A stretch of 64,000 nt of DNA from Exiguobacterium sp. 9-2 (GTDB lineage Bacteria; Bacillota; Bacilli; Exiguobacteriales; Exiguobacteriaceae): the NCBI RefSeq assembly GCF_036287235.1, contig NZ_CP142850.1, positions 2,695,336-2,759,335 on the forward strand, read 5' to 3'. This document shows positions 26,720 through 60,923 of the stretch, piece after piece. How positions within the stretch are numbered: position 1 is the stretch's first letter; the number at the start of each line of letters is the position of its first letter. The translations under genes were made by a program, and so were the position numbers. The notes under the pieces were generated by a model. It had not been told where the DNA came from and made no database searches. It saw only the letters and a list, made by a program, of their open reading frames with translations.

Positions 26720-27589
26720 ATGAAACGCTTTTTGATTGGCGTAGTCTGCCTGTCGTTGCTTCAATTCGGACTACCGCTCAAGAGTTCAGCTGCCGTTTCC
26801 GTCACTCGTCACACGGTCATCTGGACCATCCCAGAGGTCAAATCCATTTCAACGAAGATCAATCAGCTGGCAAACAGACAGATGAAACGTGTCTATCTGC
26901 ATGTCGCTGTCGAGGGTGACCGTACTCTCTACCGAACATTCGTTGAAAAAGCGCATGCTGTCGGCATCGAAGTGTACTTTCTATTCGGACAGCCGCGCTG
27001 GATCACAAACGAAGGAACGACAGCTCGACCAAACGTTGAAGATCCACTCGCCTGGATCTCGACCTATCAGCAGGAGACGATCAGTCATCCGGACGGCATC
27101 AGTGTCGATCTCGAACCGTACGCCTTACCGGAATGGGAGACGGACCAGCCAGGAGTCATCGCCTCCTACGAACGCATCTTACTCGCCTTCCGCGAAAAAG
27201 CATCTGCTGAAGGATTACCGCTGCAACTGTTCCTCCCGTTCTGGTTCCATACCGTACAGGATGCAGGTGGGCGTTCCATCAGCGAATGGGCGATGGATCT
27301 CGCTGACGAAGTCACATTGATGAGTTACCGGACCGTTTACGGTGGCGGCAACGGACTTGGCGCCATCACGATGACGGATGCATTGTATGCGGCGAGTAAC
27401 GGATATCGTTTATCGTATGCTATTGAATTCACGGAGCTTCCGGAAACACCAGACATTACGTTCTACGGCAAAACACGGACGCAACTAAATCAGCTCGTTA
27501 ATCAGACGATGGCAAGTTCGTTGCCACCAAGTGCCATTGTCTATCATGATTTTGAAGCCTACCAGACTTTCATGCGTAGTACGCAGTAA
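26720..27589 (+). CDS. Secreted protein, possible TIM-barrel glycosidase-like, unknown function
   Basis: The 289-residue protein has a signal peptide (MKRFLIGVVCLSLLQFGLPLKSSA) and a compact mature domain of barrel size. Alternating strands such as RVYLHVAVEGD, VEVYFLF-like segments, HPDGISVDLEPYALPEW, LQLFLPFWFH and ADEVTLMSYRTVYGG, and finally SAIVYHDFEAY, resemble the strand ends of a TIM barrel. The VDLEP and HDFEAY carboxylates would sit where GH18-like or related enzymes keep catalytic residues. No specific family is recognised, so activity is inference. AAGGAGTG precedes the start. It is divergent from the MFS gene; repeat copy A follows. Confidence 0.65.
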   Translation: MKRFLIGVVCLSLLQFGLPLKSSAAVSVTRHTVIWTIPEVKSISTKINQLANRQMKRVYLHVAVEGDRTLYRTFVEKAHAVGIEVYFLFGQPRWITNEGTTARPNVEDPLAWISTYQQETISHPDGISVDLEPYALPEWETDQPGVIASYERILLAFREKASAEGLPLQLFLPFWFHTVQDAGGRSISEWAMDLADEVTLMSYRTVYGGGNGLGAITMTDALYAASNGYRLSYAIEFTELPETPDITFYGKTRTQLNQLVNQTMASSLPPSAIVYHDFEAYQTFMRSTQ

Positions 27590-27612
27590 GTCATCTTTAT
27601 GCCCCTTTGCTT

Positions 27613-27735
27613 TTCATCCGCTTTCCTCAGGCGAGACACAAGCCAGTCTTCACTGTTCGTATAACAGTGAACCCGGGTCTTGTTTGTCTCTGACAGCGCA
27701 AAAATTTGCGCTTTTTCCTGTAGGAGTCGGATGAA
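27613..27735 (-). repeat. Structured intergenic repeat, copy A
   Basis: Read on the minus strand: outer arm TTCATCCG, skeleton ACTCCTACAGGAAAA, hairpin 1 (GCGCAAA/TTTGCGC), GTCAGAGACA, an inner stem (TTCACTGT/ACAGTGAA), TGTCTCGCCTGAGGAAAG and closing arm CGGATGAA. The outer arms are fully complementary, and GAGACA pairs with TGTCTC. Confidence 0.8.
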
Positions 27736-27800
27736 GCACAAGGAGGCACATAATCATTTAGTACCATGACATTATGGACTAAGCATTATGTTTAAAACAA

Positions 27801-27844
27801 GGGGAGTCCAGTTTCCGATACGTACTTCGGAAACCGGACTCCCT
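27801..27844. terminator. Strong bidirectional hairpin, terminator-like
   Basis: GGGAGTCC.GTTTCCGA / TCGGAAAC.GGACTCCC stem; T-richer sequence follows on the minus strand. It may end mbl or 26720 transcripts. Confidence 0.5.
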
Positions 27845-27869
27845 ATTGGTTTGATTCATATCGAACGAA

Positions 27870-28005
27870 CTTGTCCATTCTCGACTCCTGCAGGAAAAGA
27901 AAGTGCAAGCAGCACTTTCGTCAGGGATAGGTAAGACCCGACAACTCGCATGAAATGCGCGCTGTCGCGGCTTACCTCCCGCCTGTGGAAAGCGAGAAGG
28001 ACAAG
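27870..28005 (+). repeat. Structured intergenic repeat, copy B
   Basis: Outer arms CTTGTCC.TTCTCG and CGAGAA.GGACAAG pair over 13 bases. Skeleton ACTCCTGCAGGAAAA, hairpin 1 AAAGTGC/GCACTTT, GTCAGGGA, long inner stem GGTAAG/CTTACC with CGACA/TGTCG and GCAT/ATGC, then CTCCCGCCTGTGGAAAG. Confidence 0.8.
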
Positions 28006-28063
28006 ACGGTCGTTATAGGAATGAATTTTTACGAAAAATCATATCCTTTACGCTGACACGCTC

Positions 28064-29044
28064 TTACTTACCAAGATTGTCGAGCATGATCCCTGTACCG
28101 CGTGCGACACATAACATCGGATCTTCTGCAATCAGAACCGGTAGGCCGAGTTCTTTTGCAAGTAACTGGTCGATTCCGTCAAGAAGTGCGCCCCCACCCG
28201 TCAGGATGATGCCACGGTCGATGATGTCCGCTGCAAGCTCTGGTGGTGTCTTCTCGAGCACGCGCTTCGTTGCTTCGACGATCTCCATCGCTGCTTCTGC
28301 AAGTGCATCATGCATCTCTTCTGATGTCACCGTGATGTTGTGCGGTAAGCCCGTCACGAGATTACGTCCGCGAATATCCATCTGTTCACGACGTCCGTCT
28401 TCTGAGACCGTCGCGACCGTCGTCTTGACGGCTTGTGCTGTTCGTTCCCCGATGATCAACTTATGCGTATCCTTGATCGAGCGGATGATGTCGTGATCAA
28501 ACCGGTCACCTGCGACTTTGATCGTTTCACCACAAACGATATCACCCATTGAAAGTACGGCAACATCCGTCGTTCCGCCACCGATATCAATGACCATGTG
28601 CCCTGCTGGCATCCAAATGTCCATACCGGCACCGACTGCTGCGACCTTCGGCTCGACTTCGAGGAAGACCGTCTTCGCGCCTGATTTTTCACCAGCTTGG
28701 CGAATCGCTTTTGCTTCGACCGTTGTGATGCTTGCTGGTGTACAAATCAACATGCGGACTCCACCGAACATCTTACGGACCTCAATCTTATCGATGAAAT
28801 GGCGTAGCATCGCTTCTGTCATTTCGAAATCAGCAATGACGCCGTCTTGAAGCGGTCGAATGGCCACGATGTTTCCCGGTGTTCGGCCCACCATCAAGTG
28901 TGCTTCTGTCCCTACCGCATGAATCTTGCCTGTCGCCTTATCGATCGCGACGACCGATGGCTCATCGAGGACAATGCCTCTACCTTTTACATGAATGACG
29001 ACATTCGCCGTCCCTAAGTCGATTCCGATATCTCTTGAAAACAT
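28064..29044 (-). CDS. mbl: Rod-shape actin homologue Mbl/MreB
   Basis: The 326-residue bacterial actin forms membrane-associated filaments that direct lateral wall synthesis. Actin-fold phosphate loops are visible: DIGIDLGTANVVIH near the start and VIDIGGGTTDVAVLS in the middle, with LTGGGALL for the adenosine motif. AAAGGAG lies before ATG 29044. It sits between murA (upstream) and flhOP (downstream), the position of mbl in B. subtilis, which is why Mbl is preferred over MreB or MreBH. The intervening sporulation genes of Bacillus are missing. Confidence 0.92.
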   Translation of the reverse strand: MFSRDIGIDLGTANVVIHVKGRGIVLDEPSVVAIDKATGKIHAVGTEAHLMVGRTPGNIVAIRPLQDGVIADFEMTEAMLRHFIDKIEVRKMFGGVRMLICTPASITTVEAKAIRQAGEKSGAKTVFLEVEPKVAAVGAGMDIWMPAGHMVIDIGGGTTDVAVLSMGDIVCGETIKVAGDRFDHDIIRSIKDTHKLIIGERTAQAVKTTVATVSEDGRREQMDIRGRNLVTGLPHNITVTSEEMHDALAEAAMEIVEATKRVLEKTPPELAADIIDRGIILTGGGALLDGIDQLLAKELGLPVLIAEDPMLCVARGTGIMLDNLGK

Positions 29045-39134: not shown

Positions 39135-39279
39135 GAATCGCTCACATCACGCGACTCCTACAGGAAAAAGCACGAGTTTTCGTGCTGTCAGAGACAAGTG
39201 AGATCCGACTCCTCGTCTAAAGACGAAGGAGGCGCGGCTCACGTCTCGCTTGAGGAAAGCAAGTGAATGCAAGCGATTC
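39135..39279 (+). repeat. Structured intergenic repeat, copy C
   Basis: Outer arms GAATCGCT / AGCGATTC and CAC/GTG. Skeleton CGACTCCTACAGGAAAA, hairpin 1 AGCACGA/TCGTGCT, GTCAGAGAC, inner stems GTGAG/CTCAC and CTCC.CGTC/GACG.GGAG, then GTCTCGCTTGAGGAAAGC. It lies just past the mnaA stop. Confidence 0.8.
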
Positions 39280-39294
39280 GAGGATGATCGTTTT

Positions 39295-40428
39295 TTATTG
39301 CGTGAGTAACGGTGCCGGTGCTTCTCCTTGACCGAAGTGATGCAGAATCGCTTGGACGATGCGTTCGGACGCGTGACCGTCTCCATACGGGTTTGAAGCA
39401 TGCGCCATCTCCTGATAAAGTGTTTTGTTCGTCAAGAGTTCTGTTGCCATCTGATAGATCGTCTCTTCTTCCGTTCCGGCAAGCTTCAACGTTCCGGCAG
39501 TAATCCCTTCCGGACGTTCCGTCGTATCGCGTAAGACAAGAACAGGAACACCGAGTGATGGTGCTTCTTCTTGTACGCCACCCGAGTCAGTTAAGATCAA
39601 ATGGGCACGGCTCGCGAAGTTATGAAAATCGAAGACGTCGAGTGGAGCAATCAACGAAATCCGATCATGCCCTTCAAAAACCTTCTTCGCTGCTTCTTGA
39701 ACGACTGGATTGAGGTGGACCGGATAGACGACGTGCGTCTCCGGGAACGCATCGACGAGGCGACGAATCGCCCGGAACATTTGGTGCATTTTCTCGCCTT
39801 GGTTCTCACGACGGTGCGCTGTCATCAAGATCAACTTCCGGTCCCCGACCGTCTCGAGCATCGGGTGGACGTAATCCGATTGGACGGTCGTTTGCAGGGC
39901 ATCAATTGCCGTGTTTCCTGTAATGTAAACACCGGCGTGACGATTTTCGGATGCGAGATTCGCTGCCGCTTGCGCGGTCGGAGCGAAATGTAAGTCCGCG
40001 AGCGTCGACGTCAACTGACGATTGACCTCTTCCGGGAACGGAGAGTACTTATTATAGGTCCGCAGTCCCGCCTCGACGTGACCGACCGCGATCTGATTGT
40101 AATAGGCAGCCAGGCTTCCAACGAACGTCGTCGTCGTATCCCCATGGACGAGGACGAGATCCGGTTTGATGTCCTTCATGATGGCATCAAGTCCTTCAAG
40201 ACCACGCGTCGTAATGTCGACGAGTGTTTGACGTTGTTTCATGATATTCAAATCATGATCCGGTTCGATCTCAAACAGATCGAGCACTTGATCAAGCATC
40301 TCCCGGTGCTGGGCAGTGATCGTAACATGAACATCAAAAGCAGGGTGTTGCTTTAGGGCGTTGACGAGCGGTGCCATCTTGATGGCTTCCGGTCGTGTCC
40401 CGAAAATCGGCATGACTGTAATCGGCAT
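39295..40428 (-). CDS. mnaA: UDP-N-acetylglucosamine 2-epimerase (non-hydrolysing)
   Basis: The 377-residue cytosolic enzyme interconverts UDP-GlcNAc and UDP-ManNAc, the precursor for teichoic acid linkage units and other wall glycans. Signatures: MPIFGTRPEAIKMAPL at the start, HVEAGLRT, FPEEVNR, MTAHRREN and LTDSGGVQEEAPSLG near the C-terminus. ATG 40428 has AAGGAGGAAG upstream; the frame is open beyond but is not family-like. Lies between upp and the atp operon. No clear own terminator; repeat copy C follows. Confidence 0.94.
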   Translation of the reverse strand: MPITVMPIFGTRPEAIKMAPLVNALKQHPAFDVHVTITAQHREMLDQVLDLFEIEPDHDLNIMKQRQTLVDITTRGLEGLDAIMKDIKPDLVLVHGDTTTTFVGSLAAYYNQIAVGHVEAGLRTYNKYSPFPEEVNRQLTSTLADLHFAPTAQAAANLASENRHAGVYITGNTAIDALQTTVQSDYVHPMLETVGDRKLILMTAHRRENQGEKMHQMFRAIRRLVDAFPETHVVYPVHLNPVVQEAAKKVFEGHDRISLIAPLDVFDFHNFASRAHLILTDSGGVQEEAPSLGVPVLVLRDTTERPEGITAGTLKLAGTEEETIYQMATELLTNKTLYQEMAHASNPYGDGHASERIVQAILHHFGQGEAPAPLLTQ

Positions 40429-40502
40429 GGTGACTTCCTCCTTTTTTCCTTTTTTCATTAAAGCATATTTCAGCAATCTTGCGCAGTTTACGAAATAGCA
40501 AC

Positions 40503-60709: not shown

Positions 60710-60763
60710 AAAAAGAGGAGGTTGGTTTCCAAGGGATACCCTGGAAACCAATCTTCTCTTTTG
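60710..60763 (+). terminator. Terminator after treP-treC
   Basis: TTGGTTTCCA / TGGAAACCAA stem within a larger AAAAGAG...CTCTTTT pairing; T-run follows. Confidence 0.9.
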
Positions 60764-60792
60764 TTGAATAAATATAGAATGTGAATGCCTAT

Positions 60793-60851
60793 TCCTCGAC
60801 TCCTACAGGAAAAGAAAGCATGGTACATGCTTTTGTCAGGGAAAGCGAGGA
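60793..60851 (+). repeat. Structured intergenic repeat, copy D (short form)
   Basis: Outer arms TCCTCG / CGAGGA; skeleton ACTCCTACAGGAAAA, hairpin 1 AAAGCATG/CATGCTTT, GTCAGGGAAAGC. The inner long stem of copies A-C is missing cleanly, leaving one compact hairpin. Confidence 0.75.
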
Positions 60852-60923
60852 TGGCAGAGTCATTCGTTTTCAAAAATGATTTTTAAGCACTAGTTCCTTC
60901 CGAGTCTTTCATTTTCGCATGTT

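Follow-up and report, generated by a model that had tools for sequence, protein, structure and literature searches.

The 64,000-nucleotide stretch of Exiguobacterium sp. 9-2 DNA analyzed here (the window) contains four copies, A to D, of a folded intergenic element, all of which we found where a reading made from the sequence alone had placed them. Copy A lies on the minus strand and copies B, C, and D lie on the plus strand. A shared 15-mer, ACTCCTRCAGGAAAA, matches four times in the window without a mismatch (up to two were permitted; shuffle mean 0.13), and, with one mismatch permitted, 23 times genome-wide versus 2 for the reversed control. The copies and their surroundings are listed below, with bit scores from R1, a covariance model of the element.

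27609 to 27739, minus strand: copy A, complete, GTCAGAGA type, with a three-way junction (R1 99.1 bits, and sequence)
27872 to 28004, plus strand: copy B, complete, GTCAGGGA type (R1 132.3 bits)
39142 to 39271, plus strand: copy C, complete (R1 95.0 bits)
60787 to 60857, plus strand: copy D, decayed, without the inner stem (R1 34.0 bits)
27695 to 27712, plus strand: hairpin 1 of copy A, followed in the plus-strand reading by TTTTCC; passes a simple terminator scan
27899 to 27919, minus strand: hairpin 1 of copy B, followed in the minus-strand reading by TTTTCC; passes a simple terminator scan
27929 to 27977, plus strand: inner stem of copy B
27802 to 27843, minus strand: terminator-like hairpin of 17 pairs between A and B, serving the minus-strand gene
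60713 to 60763, no strand assigned: terminator-like hairpin 5' of copy D, limits set by eye
26720 to 27589, plus strand: left neighbor gene of A, ORF of 289 aa
28064 to 29044, minus strand: right neighbor gene of B, ORF of 326 aa, which from its sequence we take to be MreB-like
39295 to 40476, minus strand: right neighbor gene of C, ORF of 393 aa, presumably UDP-GlcNAc 2-epimerase-like, likewise as read from its sequence

The outer arms described by the sequence-only reading are present in A to D, with pairing that runs further outward than it had quoted; hairpin 1 is paired in all four copies and the long inner stem in A to C, as it had also held. Its statement that three copies stand between convergent genes is borne out as well, with A and B sharing one convergent region and D occupying another. 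Copy C is in a co-directional setting, directly after the stop of the right-hand gene; its outer arms, GAATCGCT/AGCGATTC, extend over 39135-39279, and its orthologs in five other genomes (G011, G016, G001, G003, and G007) have identical outermost arms. The 3' end of copy A points toward the stop at 27589 of the left-hand gene, and that of copy B toward the stop of the minus-strand gene ending at 28064. Copy D is a decayed copy, as its ortholog in G017 is longer. One weak promoter-like site was found near A and B, compared with 0.8 expected.

Model R1 was built from 13 well-formed copies, with the structure set by hand; these were taken from 23 pattern loci, 5 of which had no recognizable 3' end, leaving 18 from which the 13 were used. 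In the genome of the window, R1 finds 25 copies (weakest E = 5.5e-6; 150 of 922 candidates scored), and the covariance-model search proposed by the earlier reading also returned matches across the genus and across Bacilli. All 19 genomes of the genus match, between 13 and 133 times with 150 candidates scored in each, as do 45 of 299 genomes and 13 of 118 genera sampled from the class Bacilli, where 11 candidates were scored per genome. The matches across the class fall in families f1, f3, f9, f10, f11, f41, f47, and f51, so that the repeat family has relatives in seven families of Bacilli besides its own. In 15 genomes picked for having a match, the number of matches was 3-21 in every case. 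A long gapped pattern run over a sequence collection was too strict, returning 4 stretches from Salibacterium salarium and Ornithinibacillus gellani. Among 72,556 plasmid records, 14 match a form of the element from another family, most over 56-82% of the query and 2 over at least 80% of it; these come from Priestia, Peribacillus, Bacillus, Paenibacillus, and Niallia. Plasmids gave no match to copy B or to the inverted-repeat unit described below, and phages and viral contigs gave none to the other-family form or to one exact 20-mer.

Copy number and placement vary within the genus. Two genomes, G008 and G015, hold 103 and 133 matches versus 13-52 in the others, and both contain multiple subfamilies with different arms. 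In the window's own genome, 16 of the 25 copies cluster within G000:C1:2347406-2782716, or 14% of the genome, and 8 of the 9 copies outside this interval are of the inverted-repeat-unit type.

The core unit of the element can be written 5'-(outer arm) ACTCCTRCRGGAAAA ... GGAAAGC (outer arm)-3'. It contains a core stem, TCCT-R-CAGG/CCTG-N-GGA, and an inner stem whose bulge, AGACCC...GGCT, is conserved. Distant copies share a layout in which a variable outer stem is followed, typically, by ACTCCTGCGGGAAAA or something close to it; the inner stem, with GAGACCC...GGCTC, comes next, and CCCGCGGAAAGC and the second outer arm complete the element. Hairpin 1 is absent from 38 of 39 other-genus rows and is an extra feature of the Exiguobacterium copies. 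The core stem itself occurs as CAGG/CCTG, TGGG/CCCA, and CGGG/CCCG.

The claim that selection acts on a fold had been based on four copies, and it is now backed by strong covariation in three comparisons. In an alignment of 69 matches (65 distinct) from the window's genome and the genus, which was fitted to the structure and contains R1's own sequences, two-sided changes occur in 46 of 50 pairs, 89.7% of cells pair, and the covariation score is 0.513, compared with 0.196 for shuffled and 0.069-0.111 for slid partners. For 39 other-genus matches, none of them in R1 yet aligned by fitting to it (33 of the 40 other-genus loci were entered), 88% of cells are paired, and the score is 0.396 versus 0.107 shuffled and at most 0.068 slid. 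The third comparison is free of any alignment: in 96 distinct 8-nt outer-arm pairs, from copies picked for a paired core stem and not for paired arms, 76% of cells are Watson-Crick versus 41% when shuffled, and the highest of 500 shuffles reached 46%. The unpaired motif GGAAAG and the bulge AGACCC are also conserved across families. The fold is therefore real, and its outer arms, core stem, and inner stem stay paired through two-sided changes.

If the element served as a cruciform, or in some other strand-symmetric role, then G-U and A-C variants of its pairs would be expected in equal numbers. At six sets of orthologous copies, however, Watson-Crick pairs alternate with G-U in 31 columns and with A-C in 8 (p = 3e-4), in an alignment fitted with a model that itself tolerates G-U. 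This suggests that selection acts on one single strand, 5'-ACTCC...GGAAAG-3'. Two further counts speak against such a bias: in 27 inverted-repeat units of the youngest subfamily it is not significant, with 20 G-U versus 14 A-C (p = 0.39), and an unbiased count of the outer arms gives 16 versus 7 (p = 0.09), which replaces an earlier 17:5 that relied on a G-U-favoring filter. A tally of 39:21 was obtained on the A2 alignment, which was fitted to the structure. Among 52 non-redundant copies, the plus strand folds at a lower energy than the complement in 41 when RNA parameters are used and in 44 when DNA parameters are used. Since DNA parameters give the same preference, single-stranded DNA fits as well, and the strand preference is compatible with RNA and single-stranded DNA alike.

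Convergent gene ends are the preferred position of the copies. Based on simple ORF calls by length, in which a few copies overlap a called ORF, convergent genes flank 17 of the 25 own copies; the two co-directional settings account for 5 and 3, and no copy lies between divergent genes. For comparison, 5 of the window's intergenic regions measuring 60 bp or more, 33 in all, are convergent. The resulting p = 3.7e-9 assumes independent copies and is too small, given that its background is one window of 64 kb in which A, B, and D themselves lie and that paired copies share regions. Across 29 genus loci, several of them orthologous, 22 are convergent, 5 and 2 co-directional, and none divergent; in other genera, where 3 of 40 loci were too short and were omitted, the 37 loci comprise 15 convergent, 9 and 10 co-directional, and 3 divergent cases. 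Orientation relative to co-directional genes was considered as an informative feature and dropped, with counts of 5:3, 5:2, and 9:10. A cis-regulatory RNA would be looked for at a constant place upstream of one kind of gene, which does not fit the copies: they lie at gene 3' ends and, in the 25 own and 29 genus loci, never between divergent genes.

The 3' end of the element mostly faces a nearby stop codon. In 20 of the 25 own copies it lies 12-79 bp from the stop of an opposing gene. Stop distances were compared for 15 of the 17 convergent own cases (all but L042 and L043, a pair spaced far apart), and each time the 3' end was closer to a stop than the 5' end; the same holds for 19 of 22 convergent genus copies, the exceptions being L065, L073, and L076. 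On the 5' side, a terminator is often seen by eye in the extra space (uncounted). Where neighboring copies lie on opposite strands, all 24 distinct pairs found by motif search over every locus collected point outward and none inward, with 5 tandem pairs besides; orthologs are unmerged in this count (for example L049, L051, L054, L068, and L069), and, since pairs within G226 (L097, L110) and within G284 (L096, L106) are alike, there are perhaps 15 independent sites as judged by eye. A narrower count on R1 hits gave 16 outward, 4 tandem, and no inward pairs. The similar outward-facing pairs of G226 and G284 each occur at two places per genome, and an outward-facing pair may move as one composite unit. 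Tandem copies at L064, L105, L127, and L138 are spaced ~210-280 bp from start to start.

Position and strand together raise two ways in which the fold could act within transcripts. First, the strand 5'-ACTCC...GGAAAG-3' could act as RNA. Lying past a terminator and ahead of the opposing gene's 3' end, it would fold in read-through transcripts and form a second barrier against antisense transcription, through pausing, cleavage, or termination, and it would have spread because it is useful. The 31:8 excess of G-U, the better folding of the plus strand, the nearest stop on the 3' side, the frequent terminator on the 5' side, and the outward-facing pairs all suit this account. However, three of the 22 genus cases break the distance rule, the 31:8 count comes from an alignment model that accepts G-U, and the excess is not significant in the young units and has p = 0.09 on the outer arms. 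Moreover, DNA parameters favor the same strand, copies are frequently lost or decayed, and in other genera only 15 of 37 sites are convergent. We consider this account unlikely. Second, the complementary strand could act, with the element lying between a stop codon and the terminator, and hairpin 1 with TTTTCC providing a terminator or an mRNA-protecting 3' end. Some REP sequences protect mRNA 3' ends in this way. Here, the terminator scan flags hairpin 1 of A and B, with its T-run, in the sense of the mRNA (3 sites versus 0.6 in shuffled sequence), the opposing gene's stop is 12-79 bp away in most own copies, and a hairpin of -5 kcal/mol or lower lies beside the run in 124 of 126 copies by a lenient test run without shuffles. 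But the balance of G-U and A-C points to the other strand, a run of at least 4 is found in just 58 of the 126 copies, and the T-run is short and then followed by CC. We consider a role for this strand very unlikely.

Comparison of orthologous regions with and without a copy, which the sequence-only reading had suggested, shows both gain and loss. At the A/B site, 13 of the 19 genus genomes could be compared. Four of the 13 (G018, G014, G004, and G012) have just 63-95 nt with one hairpin; in G005, the inverted-repeat unit replaces the inner part of the hairpin that G014 has; G001, G002, G003, and G011 have one A-like element in opposite orientation and with different arms; a further element type, behind another terminator, is found in G009 and G013; and both A and B are present in the window's genome and G016. 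At the C site, the same copy occurs in the five genomes named above, with internal deletions in G010 and G017 and a different element in G002. At the D site, a longer copy is present in G017 and a shortened one in the window's genome, G011, and G016, while G003, G007, and G010 have small remnants only, across the terminator as judged by eye; no copy was marked in the other genomes compared, and G006 could not be placed. Thus the family is mobile or exchangeable: an orthologous site may lack a copy or hold one, and the copy may be decayed or turned around. Some of this variation could stem from homologous recombination that swaps entire intergenic regions, because the A/B region as a whole (27590-28060) is unlike that of the same-species genome G011 even though the flanking gene ends are ~98% identical.

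Insertion is seen most directly in the youngest subfamily, whose core lies within a unit of ~240 bp that has inverted ends, GGGGCTGACTCA...TGAGTCAGCC. At one site (site 2), five genomes, namely the window's own, G016, G002, G003, and G010, show the hairpin CGACGG...CCGTCG with a T-run after it (one base is changed in G003), and G007 has a similar hairpin with a different sequence after it. In G011, a 241-bp unit, GCTGACTC...GAGTCAGC, stands in the exact place of this hairpin, with the flanks and the T-run retained. Terminator replacement by the unit is shown in this one polarized case. About 20 bp were lost, which is unusual for a transposon. A second site (site 1) measures 228 bp in G011 versus 7 in the window's genome. 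Two further insertions in the G011 comparison could not be aligned, nor could own copies L007 and L020; own copy L003 is common to both genomes. The 14-base end of the unit was counted 36 times across 8 genomes. Of 30 end loci that were fetched, 22 have the core motif ~100 nt further along, and the other end was also recognized in 15 of these 22; end-to-end spacing in the loci compared peaks at 200-250 bp, with few longer. In locus L283 (G016), a unit is apparently interrupted by another insertion within its core motif.

These comparisons also clarify an earlier concern, that the arms might be target-site sequence unrelated to the element. This is correct for the outermost flanks of the inverted-repeat unit, which are remains of the target terminator. 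The arms adjoining the core, in contrast, are part of the element, because subfamilies carry them along at different places. A target-site duplication was not seen by eye in the few sites available, namely two filled/empty pairs between G011 and the window's genome and the pair G005/G014. The transposase domain Y1_Tnp (PF01797) is present in 9 of the 19 genus genomes and absent from the window's genome, from G011, the genome with recent insertions, and from G015, the genome with the most copies. It is therefore not needed for the family in Exiguobacterium.

The variation between sites raises a further possibility, that the arms are not under selection at all. Palindromes at terminators are likely places for template switching during replication, and recopying of arms at such quasi-palindromes would mimic covariation in inert repeats; the copies at the A/B site, with similar cores but different orientations and arms, could be read in this way. 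Covariation is also found in separate helices inside the element, however, and neither the conservation of unpaired GGAAAG and AGACCC across families nor the wobble asymmetry at orthologous sites would follow from recopying. Unselected arms are, in our view, highly improbable.

Based upon the whole of these data, we think it probable that A to D are non-autonomous, mobile, small interspersed elements of Bacilli, inserted at intrinsic terminators and possessing a strand-specific fold, much like BOX and RUP. Such an element would sit at intrinsic terminators, in Exiguobacterium mostly between convergent genes, and one of its strands would fold into an outer stem, a core stem, and an inner stem, with hairpin 1 added in Exiguobacterium. 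Its youngest form, the ~240-bp unit, would displace the terminator hairpin and reuse the old T-run. The fold may be needed for movement of the element or for its tolerance by the host, movement might depend on an enzyme encoded elsewhere, and a terminator could be a harmless place for insertion if the unit brings its own hairpins. The earlier suggestion of mobile palindromic elements or a structured RNA is thereby supported in part: gain and loss of copies agree with mobility and covariation with a structure, while the fold itself fits RNA or single-stranded DNA.

A cellular RNA would likewise fit with the conservation of unpaired letters and with the bias toward one strand. An RNA role of the fold, as a read-through barrier or as a 3'-UTR or terminator, is the next-best account, and it is possible that such a role followed domestication of a mobile element. 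Both ideas are joined in the view of the family as a mobile terminator module of Bacilli that replaces native hairpins and, by means of its plus-strand RNA, shields convergent genes from antisense read-through. This would account for the place after a terminator, the outward-facing pairs, and the G-U bias of the plus strand; as a complete explanation, we regard it as decidedly unlikely.

Small mobile repeats with a similar distribution are known. The accessible text of PMC3049150 describes BOX, RUP, and SPRITE of Streptococcus pneumoniae as over-represented between convergent genes, which is taken there as evidence for mobile parasites, and SPRITE as resembling a terminator. The present family is likewise multi-copy, small, interspersed, intergenic and non-coding, folded, and enriched between convergent genes. 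It differs from these elements, as far as that text describes them, in sequence and fold, in its two-sided covariation across families of Bacilli, and in having a unit that displaces a terminator hairpin. MITEs provide a second comparison: the elements are short and non-autonomous, vary in copy number, and leave filled and empty sites, and terminal inverted repeats are found, in the ~240-bp unit only. Unlike MITEs, the other Exiguobacterium copies have no fixed inverted ends, no target-site duplication was seen at the sites compared, and no partner insertion sequence was found among the loci compared, a few of which have longer end-to-end spacings, or in whole-genome searches for Y1_Tnp. REP/REPIN sequences and BIMEs are similarly extragenic, palindromic, and located at gene 3' ends, and the outward-facing pairs recall paired REPs. 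The fold is longer and more complex, however, and a REP system with a RAYT was rejected for the genus, given the three genomes named above in which Y1_Tnp is missing. Group IIC introns insert at intrinsic terminators in a specific orientation, but the element is far shorter, and the stretches scanned had no Rfam match. Integron attC sites, considered for their conserved pairing and variable arms, were dropped in view of the typical ends of attC sites.

No Rfam 15 family (4227 families, gathering thresholds) matches the window or 20 other-genera loci, and a permissive search of 27560-28060 returned 7 hits to microRNA or lncRNA models, all far below threshold. The Bacillaceae form of the repeat has probably been seen before by readers of such genomes. 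Literature searches by sequence string or topic listed no paper naming the repeat within the part of the literature covered, and a prior description is possible, for example in supplementary family lists. The accessible text of four papers (PMC12306157, PMC8632094, PMC1590033, and PMC3756968) contained nothing that could be matched to the family. Genome-wide ncRNA surveys use the term mobile/repeat sequence candidates (MRSC) for multi-copy structured motifs with no fixed gene context (PMC11109978, PMC6429828), and the family would be filed there; MRSC-65-2, in the accessible parts of these surveys, differs in being a single long stem with UYCCGG. The accessible part of PMC2267715 describes Bhal-1, a stem-loop repeat of 74 bp present in 36 copies in the Bacillaceae genome of Bacillus halodurans; judging from this description, it may belong to the present family. 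In the resources searched, then, the family has no named counterpart, and it is possible that Bhal-1 or the MRSC lists, seen in part, contain it.

Four features are unusual: pairing that stays strict from one family of Bacilli to the next, a probable preference for one strand, pairs of copies that face outward, and a hairpin-bearing unit that takes over the place of a terminator hairpin. The family provides a test case for whether the folds of small repeats are kept for a host RNA or for movement of the element. Its filled and empty sites supply strain pairs for measuring read-through at a plain terminator and at an element, and a named model would stop copies from being misread as spurious genes or new small RNAs.

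The forms outside the genus include some further variants. A minimal 59-nt form, ACTCCTGCAGG...GAGACTACAGGCTC...CCTGCGGAAAG, occurs in family f10, in a genome of ~2.5 Mb (L102:1501-1584 and L117:1501-1584). Several other-family copies (L090, L095, L105, L108, and others) have ends of the type GTTGATT...AATCAAC or similar, and carry AGCGGAA at both outer sides, as a direct repeat within an inverted layout. This is possibly a protein or GA-pair motif.
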